A stretch of 27,880 nucleotides of DNA. Origin: a virus. The DNA lies in IMG/VR virus record IMGVR_UViG_3300044911_003196, positions 1 through 27,880 of that record; one strand, written 5' to 3'. The notes below the pieces were generated by a model. It made no database searches and was not told the DNA's origin. It worked only from the letters and a program-made list of their open reading frames with translations. Every line of letters starts with the position of its first letter. Position 1 is the first letter of the stretch. Below are positions 2,966-9,539 of the stretch, one piece after another. The position numbers were made by a program, and so were the translations under genes.

Positions 2966-3405
2966 CACACCCCCCAAACCTTGATAAATACGCCATTTTC
3001 AGAGCTGTAAGCCTTTGACGATTCCCGCTCGATTACCTGGCAATCATCCTGCCAGACAATCCCCGTTAAAGCGTCCTCAGTGCATCGAATCAGCTTCGTA
3101 AGGTCTGGCTTTTTCGTGTGTGCTTTGGGCGCCGTCTCTTTCACCTGGCTTGATTTCTTGCCGGTGCCGAAATGGCTTTTCGGCCTGGTGAATGAAAATT
3201 CAACCAGCATTTTGACCGGTCCCGTAATCATTTCGGCCCCCGCGTCTGTCATTGCCTTTTGAGCGTGCATCGCAACAAGGGCTTGCCAAGTGCCCTTATT
3301 TTTGGCCGTATCCATCACGACAATTTTGCCTGTTTTCGGGTGCATGAATGCCTTTTTACTACCCGATGGGCTGGGAATGCCGGCAACGAAGAATTCAATC
3401 ATCAT
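2965..3405 (-). CDS. RusA-family Holliday-junction resolvase
   Basis: This 146-residue protein is of normal RusA length. The diagnostic region is at 100-124: KPDLTKL, then EDALTGIVWQDDCQV. It supplies the conserved Asp residues (D101, D111, D120/D121) that bind metal in this endonuclease family, and the Lys (K104) near the active site. RusA enzymes cut branched DNA as dimers. In phages they process recombination and replication intermediates before packaging, which fits its place with YqaJ- and RecT-type genes. It overlaps its neighbours by 4 bases upstream and 1 base downstream. Two consecutive ATGs (3405, 3402) are possible starts. Confidence 0.85.
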   Translation of the reverse strand: MMIEFFVAGIPSPSGSKKAFMHPKTGKIVVMDTAKNKGTWQALVAMHAQKAMTDAGAEMITGPVKMLVEFSFTRPKSHFGTGKKSSQVKETAPKAHTKKPDLTKLIRCTEDALTGIVWQDDCQVIERESSKAYSSENGVFIKVWGV

Positions 3406-3677
3406 TCCGCCCCCCTGATTTCTTGAATAAACCTTTTAATCATCTTCGCCGGCTCTCTGTCTGCCACTGATCCCGTCATTGCCTCGCGAATAAGGGTTAG
3501 CTCCTTCATGGCAAGTTTCGTATATTTCGTTTCCTTGCCGCTTGCAAAATGCACGGTAACGGATACTTGCGTCCGTTCCGCTTTAAATTTATTTGGCTCG
3601 AATTCGACCGTTTCCGTCACGATTCCGATGGTGCCGGTCCTGTCTCTCACAATGTCGCCAGGGTAAAACTGCATCAT
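3402..3677 (-). CDS. Small beta-rich hypothetical protein
   Basis: This 91-residue protein opens with FYPGDIVRDRTGTIGIVTE, a strand-turn-strand pattern typical of small SH3-like barrels, followed by more strands and a basic C-terminal helix. The frame is open further upstream, but the ATG at 3677 overlaps the preceding stop (ATGA), and upstream of it the reading would overlap a conserved gene by 170 bases, so the short form is chosen. Its function is unknown; binding to nucleic acid or protein is possible. Confidence 0.6.
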   Translation of the reverse strand: MMQFYPGDIVRDRTGTIGIVTETVEFEPNKFKAERTQVSVTVHFASGKETKYTKLAMKELTLIREAMTGSVADREPAKMIKRFIQEIRGAE

Positions 3678-4360: not shown

Positions 4361-5217
4361 GATAGACTCTCCAGAAAGGCTTTATTACGCTCCTCAGCCA
4401 ATCGCTTGGCTTCTTGCCTGGCTTGTTTTGGGCTTACCCAGGCCCCGTCTGCCCAATCCGTTTTGACTTTGTGCTGAAAGAGCTTCCAGGGCGTTGGCTT
4501 GCCCTTGCACTCCTCCAGAGCCCAGGCAACAAAGCCTGTGTCAACCATCGCTTGATCAATGCGACGTGTGAGCGGCTCGGCATAAGGACCGAACACCGCG
4601 ATAAAATTTGACTTCAGTTCGCCCAGGTCAACCGGAATAAATTCAATCGGCTGGCTTTCAATTCGTGGCACGATTCGAAGTGATCGGTTTTCTGGACCAG
4701 CCCCCGACTCAAAAGGCTCGATGTTTTGATCATCAGTTGGCGAAAAATCTTCAATGCTGCTGCTGGGTTCTGTAGCATCAGTTGTAATAGTAGATTGGAA
4801 AGATAGATTGATTCCTATATAGGGGTTATTAGGGGAGGTGACGCTAGGCGTCATCCCCCCCTGACGCTGCGCGTCATCCCCCCCCGGCGTGGCGCGTCGT
4901 GGGGTGACGTTTTCCGTCATGTCGTTTTCCGTCATGGGGTGACGCTGCGCGTCATCTGTAATTTTGTCCATGATTAAGAGGAAATATCGACGGCCTTTTT
5001 CATCATATTTTCGATAAATAAAACCAAGTTGAATTGCTTGGTTTAAATCGGATTGAATTCGCCGTACATCCTTTTTGAGAATGCTGGCAAGTTTGTCATT
5101 TGACACATAAACGTGATCCTGGCGGTCTTTATGCAATGCCAGTACGGTTAGCGTCCGAAAAGCGGCGTCGCTCAGCTCAGAACAAACCCAGTTTTCAGGA
5201 ACAAACGCGCGCCGCAT
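4357..5217 (-). CDS. Replication initiator (winged-helix, lambda-O-like)
   Basis: This is a 286-residue protein. Residues 1-85 look like a winged-helix DNA-binding domain: 'LSDAAFRTLTVLALHKD', then 'VSNDKLASILKKDVRRIQSDLNQAIQLGFI' with a beta wing 'GRRYFLLIM'. A low-complexity linker (about 88-175, with repeats such as DDAQR and MTEN) is followed by a helical C-terminal domain (about 195-286). The linker is encoded by a set of palindromic DNA repeats, as in lambda O, where the origin lies inside the initiator gene. The N-terminal domain would bind the repeats and the C-terminal domain would recruit the helicase. The gene starts three bases after the csrA stop. Confidence 0.7.
   Translation of the reverse strand: MRRAFVPENWVCSELSDAAFRTLTVLALHKDRQDHVYVSNDKLASILKKDVRRIQSDLNQAIQLGFIYRKYDEKGRRYFLLIMDKITDDAQRHPMTENDMTENVTPRRATPGGDDAQRQGGMTPSVTSPNNPYIGINLSFQSTITTDATEPSSSIEDFSPTDDQNIEPFESGAGPENRSLRIVPRIESQPIEFIPVDLGELKSNFIAVFGPYAEPLTRRIDQAMVDTGFVAWALEECKGKPTPWKLFQHKVKTDWADGAWVSPKQARQEAKRLAEERNKAFLESLS
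4770..4954. other. Probable replication origin: palindromic iterons plus AT-rich segment
   Basis: Five 15-bp imperfect or perfect palindromes occur at 4839-4853, 4862-4876, 4905-4919, 4920-4934 and 4940-4954. Their forms are TGACGC-N3-GCGTCA (three copies) and TGACG/TGTCG-TTTTC-CGTCA (two copies). A degenerate sixth may lie at 4886-4900, and C runs separate some of them. Next to them, 4770-4838 is AT-rich, a candidate unwinding element. The whole lies inside the initiator gene, as does the lambda origin. Confidence 0.65.
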
Positions 5218-5220
5218 TGT

Positions 5221-5415
5221 TTATTCTGCTTTCTGTGCCTGGCTATCCAATTCCTTTTGCTTTTCGACCCAGATTTCTTCGCGGTTCACGTCAATATCTT
5301 CCGGGGCATCAATCCCTAGTTTGACCTTATCCCCCCTTATTTCTACGACTGTCACTTTTACAGCCCCGCCCGCAATGATCAGAGATTCGTTTTTCTTCCG
5401 ACTAAGAACCAGCAT
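5221..5415 (-). CDS. csrA: CsrA-family translational regulator
   Basis: This 64-residue protein is a full-length CsrA. It begins MLVLSRKKNES, contains VEIRGDKVKLGIDAPEDI, and keeps the RNA-binding NREEIW segment with R45 and the N-terminal L4/R6. CsrA dimers bind GGA motifs in mRNA leaders, usually repressing translation of the message. The ATG is preceded by GGAGG with 7 bases of spacing. It sits between recT and the replication initiator, three bases from the latter, so it is made with the replication proteins. It could retune host physiology or control phage early mRNAs. Phage-borne csrA is uncommon in textbook phages. Confidence 0.93.
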   Translation of the reverse strand: MLVLSRKKNESLIIAGGAVKVTVVEIRGDKVKLGIDAPEDIDVNREEIWVEKQKELDSQAQKAE

Positions 5416-5416
5416 C

Positions 5417-5434
5417 GTTGTACCTCCGTGTTGT
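5417..5434 (-). promoter_or_regulatory. csrA ribosome-binding site overlapping a possible CsrA site
   Basis: On the minus strand the sequence ahead of the csrA ATG is ACAACACGGAGGTACAAC. It contains a strong Shine-Dalgarno GGAGG and, around it, an ACA-N-GGA arrangement like the CsrA binding consensus. This would allow CsrA to repress its own translation. It is inferred from motif only. Confidence 0.45.
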
Positions 5435-5438
5435 AAAT

Positions 5439-5597
5439 GCCGGGCGACAACAAGCCGCCCGGCAGCCTGGATATACCTCTTTGTCGATTCATGTGATGAA
5501 TGGACTCAGAGCCCGGCCTGGTGAGTTGTAGTACCAAGCCGGAACACAGGGGGCGAGATCGAACTCGCCGGCTCTCGGCTGGAAATCCCCGAGAGCC
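5439..5597 (-). ncRNA. Candidate structured RNA: five consecutive hairpins upstream of csrA
   Basis: The 205-base gap between recT and csrA folds on the transcribed strand into five separate hairpins. HpI is 5570-5597 (9-bp stem GGCTCTCGG/CCGAGAGCC, loop with GGA). HpII is 5552-5569 (6 bp, GGCGAG/CTCGCC, loop TTCGAT). HpIII is 5513-5542 (10 bp with one G-U, loop of 10). HpIV is 5483-5505 (3+6 bp with a mismatch). HpV is 5439-5463 (8 bp, GCCGGGCG/CGCCCGGC). None is followed by a U run, so they are not ordinary terminators. Possible roles are a csrA leader, an mRNA-processing or stability element, or a separate small RNA. I know no matching family. Confidence 0.45.
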
Positions 5598-5620
5598 CCG
5601 CCTGGCCCCGTAAACGTGCA

Positions 5621-6646
5621 TCAGTTCCCTGCCTGATGTTCGCTTGCAATTCGCCCCGCTGCATATTTCAGCATCGAAAGCGTTGTTTCCCAATTGTCGT
5701 TACTCTTGGCGATTTCATTTACTTTCTGGCGGTAAGTTGTGGCCTTGCCGCTAACAATTGTTTCATTCGCCATTGTTTCATAAATGGTATTTATGACCGC
5801 CCCCGGGTGCCCGTATTGAGCCAGTCCCCGGCGTGCGTATTCATCCGCTGCTTTTGAGGCCCAATTATCGATCTTGGTGACGATTTCGCCGAACGATTGC
5901 GCTTGCGATTGCATTTCGACCGGCTGTTGACTCTCGGCCGGCTTCGATAAATCAGGCTCTTCCCAGGGTGTTTCGACGGCCTCTGGGATTGGCTCAGGCG
6001 CAGGCTTGGCTGGCGTGGTCTGTACTTTCGGCTTACCGTTCTTCGCGGGCTCTGGTGCGGGCTCTGACAGTGTTTCCGTCAATGGTTCGACATTGACATC
6101 AATAATTTCGCCCTCAATGATTTCATCAGGCGTATAAACCGGACCCATGAAAATATCAGGCGTATAGGCCCGGGCGCCTTGTGTAATGGCCCTGGCAAAT
6201 ACCATTGATTTCGGGTATTTCTCCCAGTTTGATGAAGGTTTAACCAGTTGAGCCCGCTTGGCATCTTCAATCGTATAAACTGACGTACCTAAAAGCTGGT
6301 TGCCCTGGTAAAACGAAATTTTACAGGCTGTGGCGCTCCATTCGTTTACCCGGTAATCATAACGATTTGACTGTTTAATGAGGCTGGAAACAAGCCCGGC
6401 CGATAGGCTTGGCCGGCCCTGAATCACTGACACGCCCATCATGGCCTGAAACGTCGATAGTCCCAGCTCTTTTCCGAGCAAAATCTTAACGGCCGCTTCT
6501 TCGACACTACGGACGCCAAAATACTGACTCTTCAGCGCGATTGCGGCGTATGTCATGATTTCGTCAAGTGTCGCCGGTTCAATCACGTTCCGACGCGGTA
6601 AATCTTCAGTTACAGGTATCGTTGCCAGTCTGTTATTATTCGCCAT
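5621..6646 (-). CDS. recT: RecT-family single-strand annealing protein
   Basis: From the ATG at 6646 the protein has 341 residues. The region from about 25 to 175 has the RecT/Bet-like pattern seen in phage annealing proteins: 'AVKILLGKELGLSTFQAMMGVSVIQGRPSLSA', then 'YPKSMVFARAITQGARAYTPDIFMGPVYTPDE'. A Pro/Glu-rich linker follows, then a helical C-terminal segment. RecT proteins coat single-stranded DNA and anneal it to a complementary strand, and they pair with an exonuclease, here the gene just upstream. The frame could also start at a TTG six bases earlier, but the AGGAAAGG ribosome-binding site is better spaced for the ATG. It overlaps the exonuclease stop by 11 bases. The hairpin-rich region follows. 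Confidence 0.85.
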   Translation of the reverse strand: MANNNRLATIPVTEDLPRRNVIEPATLDEIMTYAAIALKSQYFGVRSVEEAAVKILLGKELGLSTFQAMMGVSVIQGRPSLSAGLVSSLIKQSNRYDYRVNEWSATACKISFYQGNQLLGTSVYTIEDAKRAQLVKPSSNWEKYPKSMVFARAITQGARAYTPDIFMGPVYTPDEIIEGEIIDVNVEPLTETLSEPAPEPAKNGKPKVQTTPAKPAPEPIPEAVETPWEEPDLSKPAESQQPVEMQSQAQSFGEIVTKIDNWASKAADEYARRGLAQYGHPGAVINTIYETMANETIVSGKATTYRQKVNEIAKSNDNWETTLSMLKYAAGRIASEHQAGN

Positions 6647-7586
6647 TGCCAAAAGCCTTTCCTATGCGTGGTGTTCTGTGAGGTGCGCCCGTCTTTTGAT
6701 AGGCTGCAAACAATTCTGGATGATCCGCCTTGAAACGCTCCTGATCAAACGACTTGCGGCCCGCTGTGGTTTTTAGCGTGAAAGCCGGCTTGCCGTTTAT
6801 CAGGCCTATTTCTGCATCGTCAAGAGCTGCCCGAAAACGGTTTGTCATTTCCGTTTCCCGGTTTTCCAGCTCTTTAATTTGTGCCTTAATTTCAACCAAC
6901 TGCCTTAAATCGTCGGCCAGGTTGTCGATATTAATTTCTTTCCCAGGCGTGGCCTGGATCGCTTTCAGCAGGTCGGTTGTACCTGATCGATAATCGACCG
7001 GTGGCAATTCCTTCCCGCGTACATAACGCAACCAGAATTCAATCACCTGATCTAAGGCACCTTCAAAGAATTCAGGTGAGAAGGGTATCTGGAAGATTTC
7101 AACTTTGCGGGCATAGCTGCCCAGGAACAAAACGGCAAGATCGGCCTGATAAATGCCCGATATGCCCATTTGCCACTGCACTTGAGCCTTATAACGCTCC
7201 GGTACATCATCCCATTTGTAATCGGCCGTTGTTTTCGCTTCAACAATCTTGACGGGATTGCCATTGTCGAAAACTAGGCCGTCAACAGTGGCCCCGCAAA
7301 ACTCCCAATCTGGATGACGGTAGAAAACTTGAGTGCGGCCGATCTTAGCGGCCTGGTCGTCCTGGTATCGTCTCAGAACGTAGTTTTCCAGATACAGGCC
7401 CAGCTCCATCGCTTCATTCGATTCGGTAGGTGGTGTCAGGCCCTTTTTTCTCATGGCAATTTCAAAGGGGCTGGAAAAGGCCCCATCGACGCCCAGAATT
7501 CCGGCCGTATCGGCTGATCCGCAATAAGTATTGCGGTCAATCGCGGCGGCCAGCGCCGGCCCTGTGGTTGGCTGTATAACGCTCAA
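6636..7586 (-). CDS. YqaJ-type phage recombination exonuclease
   Basis: This 316-residue protein has the PD-(D/E)XK nuclease residues of YqaJ/lambda-exonuclease enzymes in order: E67 in GLYLENYV, D102 in ATVDGLV, E116-x-K118 in IVEAKT, and Q135 in YKAQVQWQM. The C-terminal third (from about 215) is helical and charged. These enzymes resect double-stranded DNA ends to give 3' tails for the annealing protein, and the RecT-type partner follows immediately. The start is TTG at 7586, preceded by AAGGAGG with 6 bases of spacing. It overlaps the stop of a 15-codon micro-ORF (TTGA), which suggests coupled translation. Confidence 0.87.
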   Translation of the reverse strand: MSVIQPTTGPALAAAIDRNTYCGSADTAGILGVDGAFSSPFEIAMRKKGLTPPTESNEAMELGLYLENYVLRRYQDDQAAKIGRTQVFYRHPDWEFCGATVDGLVFDNGNPVKIVEAKTTADYKWDDVPERYKAQVQWQMGISGIYQADLAVLFLGSYARKVEIFQIPFSPEFFEGALDQVIEFWLRYVRGKELPPVDYRSGTTDLLKAIQATPGKEINIDNLADDLRQLVEIKAQIKELENRETEMTNRFRAALDDAEIGLINGKPAFTLKTTAGRKSFDQERFKADHPELFAAYQKTGAPHRTPRIGKAFGNGE

Positions 7587-8336: not shown

Positions 8337-8378
8337 TTTCTAATCCGTTGGGCGGGGGTTCGAATCCCTCCGGGTGTA
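8337..8378 (+). other. attP core: 3' half of a tRNA-Arg(TCT)
   Basis: The sequence matches the second half of a tRNA. It has an anticodon loop TTTCTAA with TCT at 8339-8341, the 3' anticodon stem TCCGT, a five-base variable loop, a T stem-loop GGGGG-TTCGAAT-CCCTC (8354-8370), the acceptor strand CGGGTGT and the discriminator A at 8378. The 5' half is absent. Many integrases recombine within tRNA genes, and their attP carries the 3' part so that the host tRNA is restored. Int follows 85 bases on. Confidence 0.85.
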
Positions 8379-8457: not shown

Positions 8458-8470
8458 GAGTAATGTACTC
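8458..8470. promoter_or_regulatory. Palindrome centred on the int start codon
   Basis: GAGTA-ATG-TACTC is a perfect inverted repeat with the ATG at its centre. ATGTACTC also occurs at 8429-8436. These could be operator or integrase-binding sites. Confidence 0.35.
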
Positions 8471-9539
8471 AATTATCGATGTTTTTGCTGATATGGGACG
8501 CCCTAAGCACAACGTCCCAACTTTACGCCATCATGCTCATTCCGGGCAGGCGTTCATCTTGTTCAATAGCGTGACCATCTATCTAGGCCACGCCGGGTCG
8601 GCTGAAGCGGCAGCTGCTTATCAAGCGATATTGGCGAATATCACTTCTACCGGTCAGGCTGTGATTTTACCGGTCGAGAATCGGCCAAAAATGACCGTAG
8701 GCGAAATAGTTAATGAGTATTTGAGTAACTTACCTAAAAACTACCCTCAAGCCTCTGGCGAGCCGAAAATGATCGGCCTTGCGATCCGTTGGTTGCTGCG
8801 GCAAGAGTTTGCAACAATTCAGGCTGAATCATTTACCCCAGCCAAGTTTCTTGAACTTCGCCAGGCGTGGGTTGATACGGGCAAAAGCATCCTTACTATC
8901 AATAAATGGCACAACTACACATTGAATCTGTTTCGTTGGGCGGCCATGACTGACAGACTTCCGGCAAGTGTCTGGCATTCATTACAGACAGTGCCGAAGC
9001 TCAAGCCGGGCAGATCGCCCGCCAAGCAAGCCAAAAAGGTCGATCCCGTGCCGATTGCAGACGTGGAAGCGGTCAAGGCGGTGGTGTCGGATGTGATCCG
9101 TGATTTGATCGACCTGCAGATATTTACCGGCATGAGGTCAGGCGAGGTCTTGAGCATGACCACCCGGCAGATTTCGGATAACGTTTATCGGCCTGAAAAG
9201 CATAAAAATAAATGGCGAGGCCACAAGCGGGAGATTCACCTGGGGCCGCAAGCACGCGCAATCGTTGCTCGCCGGTCGGCTGGATTGTCGCCAGATGATC
9301 GACTGTTTAAAATGCGGGTCGATAGCTATACCACGACCATCGACCGAGCATGCAAACGGGCAGGGGTGGCGCATTGGCACCCGCACCAGCTTCGGCATTT
9401 GGCCGGGTCGATGGTACGGGATAAATATGGCCTGGATGCCGCTCAAGCGTTTCTAGGCCACGCCACGGCCAAAACCAGTGAAATCTATGCAAAGGTTAAG
9501 ACTGATCTATCCCGGCAGGCGGCTGAGGAGATTGGCTGA
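8463..9539 (+). CDS. int: Tyrosine recombinase (phage integrase)
   Basis: This protein has 358 residues from the ATG at 8463. An alternative start is the ATG at 8493, whose product MGRPKHNVPT looks a natural N-terminus; neither has a convincing ribosome-binding site. The catalytic set is present: R225 (TGMRSGEVL), H308 and R311 (HPHQLRH), H333 (FLGHATAKTSEIYAK) and the nucleophile Y342. The SAM-like core-binding domain spans about 75-170. The N-terminal 'SGQAFILFNSVTIYLGHAGSAEA' resembles planctomycete integrases. It acts on the adjacent tRNA-derived attP. A 13-bp palindrome (GAGTA-ATG-TACTC) surrounds the first ATG and may be an operator. Confidence 0.93.
   Translation: MYSIIDVFADMGRPKHNVPTLRHHAHSGQAFILFNSVTIYLGHAGSAEAAAAYQAILANITSTGQAVILPVENRPKMTVGEIVNEYLSNLPKNYPQASGEPKMIGLAIRWLLRQEFATIQAESFTPAKFLELRQAWVDTGKSILTINKWHNYTLNLFRWAAMTDRLPASVWHSLQTVPKLKPGRSPAKQAKKVDPVPIADVEAVKAVVSDVIRDLIDLQIFTGMRSGEVLSMTTRQISDNVYRPEKHKNKWRGHKREIHLGPQARAIVARRSAGLSPDDRLFKMRVDSYTTTIDRACKRAGVAHWHPHQLRHLAGSMVRDKYGLDAAQAFLGHATAKTSEIYAKVKTDLSRQAAEEIG

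Follow-up and report, generated by a model that had tools for sequence, protein, structure and literature searches.

The gap between recT and csrA in a 27.9-kb phage record (27,880 nt; the window, meaning this whole stretch of DNA) carries an RNA structure whose predicted fold follows the layout of a tRNA that lacks a D stem and a usable anticodon arm. It is a diverged member of a group of csrA-linked tRNA-like elements whose fold is conserved through compensatory changes, whose sequences are swapped in one and the same slot and which lie on the strand that is read with csrA. By its position, the region from 5416 to 5620 would be transcribed together with csrA and form the leader of the phage csrA mRNA.

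The minus strand of the window carries, in this order, the genes for a YqaJ nuclease and RecT, the gap, csrA, and the genes for a replication-initiation-like protein and RusA (Table 1). The cellular csrA genes nearest to that of the phage are nearly all from Planctomycetota, which makes a planctomycete the likely host. No nucleotide match to the locus was obtained among the INPHARED phages; the csrA matches in that collection, mostly from Pseudomonas and Vibrio phages, were less than 60 % identical. Elsewhere in the window, repeated units of the GACGC...GCGTCA type, seen by eye at 4836-4956 within the replication gene, are possible origin iterons, and secondary matches between the window and its relatives revealed internal phage repeats (9602-9715/11093-11206 and 21338-21638/22960-23257).

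Table 1 Features of the recT-csrA region of the window
Feature	Positions	Strand	Evidence
csrA (64 aa)	5221..5415	-	Pfam PF02599, E 1.5e-20
Ribosome-binding site of csrA, ACGGAGG, contains GGA	5423..5429	-	Paired in predicted fold
G+C-rich 11-bp hairpin 5' of the ribosome-binding site	5438..5464	-	Predicted fold
Interrupted hairpin CTCTGAGTC...GAC..AGAG, 4+3+6 bp	5477..5511	-	Predicted fold; L003 keeps the stem with a G-U change
Hairpin CCGGCTTGGT/ACCAGGCCGG, 10 bp	5513..5542	-	Predicted fold; one mismatch in L003
Segment replaced in L002 by unrelated sequence (GAAATTG-TGACGCG...CGCGTCA-A)	5544..5618	-	L002 vs. window
tRNA-like structure of 68 nt (acceptor-like stem; linker with GG, no D stem; P2; T-arm)	5545..5612	-	Minimum-energy fold, pair probabilities, same-slot fold in L002
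Acceptor-like stem, 3' strand CCCTGTG	5545..5551	-	Pairs with 5612-5606
T-arm-like hairpin GGCGAG-TTCGAT-CTCGCC, 6 bp, loop one base shorter than canonical	5552..5569	-	Predicted fold
Middle stem P2 (GGCTCTCGG/CCGAGAGCC, 9 bp), loop GGATTTCCAG, in anticodon-arm position	5570..5597	-	Pair probability ~1.0
Acceptor-like stem, 5' strand TACGGGG	5606..5612	-	Pair probability 0.73-0.96 with 5551-5545
recT, single-strand annealing protein	5621..6652	-	PHROG 561, E 3.7e-27

Folding of the gap on the transcribed (minus) strand gave -98.7 kcal/mol against a mean of -71.5 kcal/mol for shuffled sequences (z = -6.35), and none of 200 shuffles was as good; the opposite strand was also more stable than its shuffles, but less so (z = -4.57). 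The five stems listed in a first-pass annotation of this DNA are all present, with pair probabilities that are mostly 0.9-1.0. Their description as independent and perfect has to be revised: in the minimum-energy fold, the first two are enclosed by a 7-bp closing stem and together with it make up a three-way junction, and the stem at 5511-5477 is interrupted. A terminator-like site was looked for on the minus strand of the gap and was not found; a search of the same strand for a sigma-70-like site was equally negative. The statement that this structured RNA resembles no RNA family is supported in that Rfam gave no family above its gathering cut-off in the window, and the matches obtained at a relaxed threshold were at chance level and all on the other strand. 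Both the L008 group, where it shows a compensated change, and the window group have a G+C-rich hairpin just 5' of the ribosome-binding site, and the L016 leader has the same layout with a different set of hairpins. Sequestration of the Shine-Dalgarno sequence by 5476-5469 was considered and dropped, since it is strong in the window, weaker in L003, and variable elsewhere.

Within the three-way junction, the T-arm-like hairpin with its TTCGAT loop directly abuts the acceptor-like stem. The window copy is imperfect, having a T-loop of six bases and two G-U wobble pairs in the acceptor. ARAGORN at default settings called no tRNA in the window; at lowered thresholds its calls, of tRNAs as well as tmRNAs and on either strand, contradicted each other and were not used. 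The element did not score on any tRNA model tested, and its membership in the csrA-linked group therefore rests on slot, fold, and T-loop.

The slot is best seen in three relatives that carry the locus. L004 is virtually identical to the window here, while L003 has an identical tRNA-like part between flanks that are only ~85 % identical. L002 matches the window at 97-98 % identity in long stretches to one side and at 92 % across a 4.4-kb stretch that holds recT and the gap; from the recT stop to CCGGCTTGG, however, it carries a replacement (TGACGCG ... GACCA...TGGTC ... GCAGGTTCGACTCCTGC ... CGCGTCA). This insert is unrelated in sequence and is nevertheless predicted to fold as the same three-way junction, with a canonical T-arm. 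The recT gene of L003 (from 6001) is missing its C-terminal end together with the stop codon, so that a single open frame leads from recT across the tRNA-like region and on into csrA, which is a different allele there.

Across phages, tRNA-like elements are enriched upstream of csrA on the csrA-sense strand. A descriptor (5-bp T-arm, TTCRA loop, acceptor of at least 6 bp) applied to ~0.75 Mb of phage csrA loci returned 29 csrA-sense matches versus 3 antisense, with 0.4 expected from local shuffles; its stricter form returned 10, 1, and 0, respectively. Matches lay within 300 nt of csrA in 19 of 127 distinct upstream contexts, equivalent to about eight lineages once related contexts are merged and L080 is counted; the L024 element starts just outside this distance, and the descriptor does not pick up the window allele. 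The antisense strand upstream of csrA had no match in the 127 contexts, and the rest of the csrA-sense strand had 18 in 996 kb, real tRNAs among them. The csrA-linked elements are those of the window group, the L008 group (~30 contigs), L024, L027, L053, L264/L265, L272, and L307, to which L080/L271 add an element called as a tRNA by ARAGORN. At 80 bacterial csrA loci, the same descriptor does find tRNAs, confirmed by ARAGORN, and no sense-strand element was found within 300 nt upstream of csrA. In many planctomycete chromosomes (e.g., L118, L131, and L141), a tRNA gene on the same strand lies ~400-1100 nt 3' of csrA, which may have a bearing on how phage csrA met tRNA-like elements.

The elements are 59-134 nt long and are easily overlooked: ARAGORN at default settings called only three of the phage elements tRNAs and missed nearly all relatives. 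The tRNA family was the only Rfam family for which relatives (L046 with two elements, L073, and L024) exceeded the gathering cut-off. Scores of 36.3, 28.5, and 24.8 bits were obtained on the tRNA model (cut-off 29), and 28.8 bits on the tRNA-Sec and 25.4 bits on the mascRNA model, both below the respective cut-offs. Similar elements also occur directly 5' of DNA polymerase A genes (L061, 1894-2023; L037, ~3330-3430) and, in L024, at the junction of an AAA-domain gene with a DUF669 gene, which suggests that their use is not restricted to csrA. L093, L096, L105, and L110 have the same tRNA-like leader followed, where csrA would be expected, by an HNH endonuclease gene beginning with MLVALEIKKGSG, perhaps a homing gene inserted at the csrA start.

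The first-pass annotation took a lack of compensatory changes in related phages as grounds for refutation; such changes proved abundant, and the structure was not refuted. The L008 group has conserved flanks, GGATGGCAATTTGTCG ... TTGTCAGGGG, around at least four different alleles, with T-stems such as GTAGG/CCTAC, TCCGG/CCGGA, and AAGGG/CCCTT; L103, with other 5' flanks, has GTGGG/CCCAC. In an alignment of this group anchored on the flanks, pairing of the T-stem is complete (100 %) and three of its pairs show two-sided changes; the acceptor is 83 % paired, the losses being at the two pairs adjoining the T-stem. Across lineages, acceptor and T-stem of 12 elements are paired in 95.8 % of cells, a percentage that is partly by construction because the 31-nt core alignment was trimmed manually out of elements that had been picked by their pairing, and 11 of the 12 pairs show two-sided changes. 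Shuffles of this set gave 59 % and 7.4 pairs (none of 500 as good), and slid registers gave 38-50 % pairing; shuffled-sequence scans and the flank-anchored alignment serve as checks independent of the core alignment. Pair 7-66, adjoining the T-stem, is often unformed. L264 and L265 differ by an acceptor change from G-C to A-U. In the relatives, the acceptor closes onto a T-arm with a canonical 7-base loop (TTCRANN), while the middle arm (P2) is the most variable part and is conserved neither in sequence nor in length. These results rule out an origin as chance hairpins and make neutral decay unlikely.

The same data bear on the view that the elements are functional or decaying phage tRNA genes that lie before csrA by accident. 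In its favour, the Rfam tRNA model gives scores for several relatives, the ARAGORN tRNA of L080/L271 lies before csrA, and the first half resembles tRNA-Leu in L307, L046, and L053. Such an origin is all the same very unlikely: most elements have neither a D stem nor a constant anticodon loop, U33 and the anticodon-like triplet are not the same in L008-group alleles that are nearly identical, and decay is opposed by the compensatory changes and by repeated independent placement before csrA. A canonical tRNA was rejected for similar reasons, the D stem being absent from the window, L002, and L008, the length and loop of the middle arm differing, and U33 varying among close alleles. There is hardly any probability that the window element is an integration site (attP) carrying the end of a host tRNA. 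A T-arm-like sequence is present and the phage encodes an integrase, but the element has both acceptor strands, unlike a 3' fragment, and lies ~3 kb from the integrase gene, beside which a plausible attachment core is found. This probable core, GGGCGGGGGTTCGAATCCCTCCGGGTGTATTTTGCC on the plus strand at 8348-8378, resembles a tRNA 3' end and is located directly 5' of the integrase gene (8463-9539).

It had also been proposed that binding of CsrA may be the reason for the hairpins, an idea that finds no support here. A GGA is indeed exposed in a hairpin loop, that of P2, and the motif ACACGGAGG does precede csrA. The window leader, however, contains two GGA sequences where shuffles contain 3.6, and the leaders of the relatives show no clear enrichment except for L272 (4 vs. 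1.5). The loop GGA is not conserved, being absent from the middle arm of the L002 replacement and from P2 of the L008 group. A CsrA-titrating RNA of the CsrB/RsmZ type, with many loop GGAs, was rejected on the same count. Feedback by CsrA at ACGGAGG is possible, as this Shine-Dalgarno sequence contains GGA and ACAAGGAT is present in most L008-group leaders. A leader in which the hairpins present GGA to CsrA, CsrA represses its own translation at that site, and the tRNA-like part merely stabilises the mRNA is doubtful in view of the lack of enrichment and conservation.

With about an even chance of being right, the elements may be regarded as tRNA-derived structures that were recruited as processing sites for RNase P, and perhaps RNase Z, and that fix the 5' end of the csrA mRNA; which enzymes act, and how expression is affected, is inferred. 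The csrA leader would start with the D-stemless, tRNA-derived structure, of which host RNase P would read the coaxial stack of acceptor and T-arm and the elbow, cutting at the 5' side of the acceptor. A GG doublet follows the acceptor by 2-11 nt in all 11 tabulated elements (chance ~0.001), and U is found at position -1 in 9 of the 11 (7 of 9 lineages, P ~0.001). In these small samples, both features are in keeping with a substrate of RNase P in which D-loop and T-loop form an elbow. Two points tell against cleavage: the window's own copy is imperfect, and the RNase P of some bacteria prefers a CCA, which no element encodes. The planctomycete tRNAs seen at bacterial csrA loci do not encode CCA either. 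As the elements lack an encoded CCA, RNase Z may cut after the discriminator position. Cleavage would give a csrA mRNA with its own 5' end, parted from recT where recT is upstream, and would leave the downstream hairpins and the ribosome-binding site as a separate leader. The idea that csrA could be regulated apart from recT is supported to the extent that a structured leader before csrA could permit separate expression. Since the gene upstream of the L024 element is divergent, parting two genes is not a universal role, and the leader role is the common denominator. That about eight lineages keep the structure before csrA while its sequence is swapped suggests a landing site for tRNA-processing enzymes on a phage mRNA.

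The main rival to such a processing site is mimicry, in which the tRNA-like RNA, free or in cis, would serve as a decoy or sensor by binding a tRNA-recognising protein (EF-Tu, a synthetase, a modification enzyme, or a defence nuclease that cleaves tRNA), with an arms race behind the variable middle arm. Sequence swapping fits this as well: unrelated sequences replace each other in one slot with acceptor and T-arm kept, and the middle arm varies most. Mimicry is possible, though hardly probable, given that the anticodon-like triplet and its loop are not conserved and that a link in cis to csrA is unexpected for a free decoy. A combination of the two, with the elements as exchangeable 5' modules of the csrA operon, is distinctly unlikely; here a host tRNA-maturation enzyme would make the mRNA 5' end, the excised RNA would act separately as a sensor of, or a decoy for, host factors that bind tRNA, and differences between hosts would drive the swapping.

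Processing of tRNA-like parts has precedents: those cut by RNase P are found in tmRNA, in some bacterial mRNAs, in phage RNAs, and at plant-virus ends, and together with RNase Z the enzyme frees mascRNA from MALAT1 (PMC11143913; PMC4919922). Elements of the mascRNA type, cut by these two enzymes (PMC4919922), resemble those described here in being tRNA-like folds within a longer non-tRNA transcript (mascRNA/menRNA of MALAT1 and MEN-beta; Rfam RF01684). The L103 element matches the mascRNA model weakly (25.4 bits vs. a cut-off of 42.5), and there is no close sequence relation; mascRNA sits in humans, at the 3' end of a long non-coding RNA of the nucleus, whereas the phage elements lie in an mRNA leader where processing is proposed. 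The tRNA-like domain of tmRNA likewise has an acceptor, a canonical T-arm, no D stem, and a long stem replacing the anticodon arm; the phage elements are short and variable in sequence and have neither a recognised tag reading frame nor pseudoknots. Identity with tmRNA was rejected, as there is no model match or tag reading frame and the elements measure 59-134 nt. The 3' tRNA-like structures of plant viruses (TYMV type) are viral tRNA mimics and RNase P substrates (PMC12710915). They share with the phage elements that a viral RNA mimics tRNA, but have a pseudoknotted acceptor with CCA at the genome 3' end instead of a regular acceptor, without CCA, within an mRNA. In mitochondrial tRNA punctuation, tRNAs at gene borders set the mRNA ends. 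The phage elements are also tRNA-shaped parts at gene borders, with the setting of mRNA ends as a proposal; those of mitochondria are true decoding tRNAs, in contrast to non-decoding elements tied mainly to csrA. The his operon is cited in PMC11143913 as a case of RNase P acting inside a polycistronic bacterial mRNA. The proposed cleavage within the phage mRNA would be alike in this. Among bacterial operon mRNAs processed by RNase P, we know of none with a conserved tRNA-like junction that goes with a single gene family.

No Rfam family and no publication on such elements was found, the latter in a keyword search with most subscription journals outside its scope. The elements are best placed among tRNA-like structures recruited into other transcripts, outside any named family. 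If this reading is correct, they would constitute a conserved class of tRNA-like structures in the mRNA leaders of DNA phages, linked to a single regulatory gene and missed by routine annotation. The question of whether phages make use of RNase P and RNase Z in shaping their mRNAs, in the manner of mitochondria and MALAT1, would become testable, and a new view on the expression of phage-borne CsrA would be gained.
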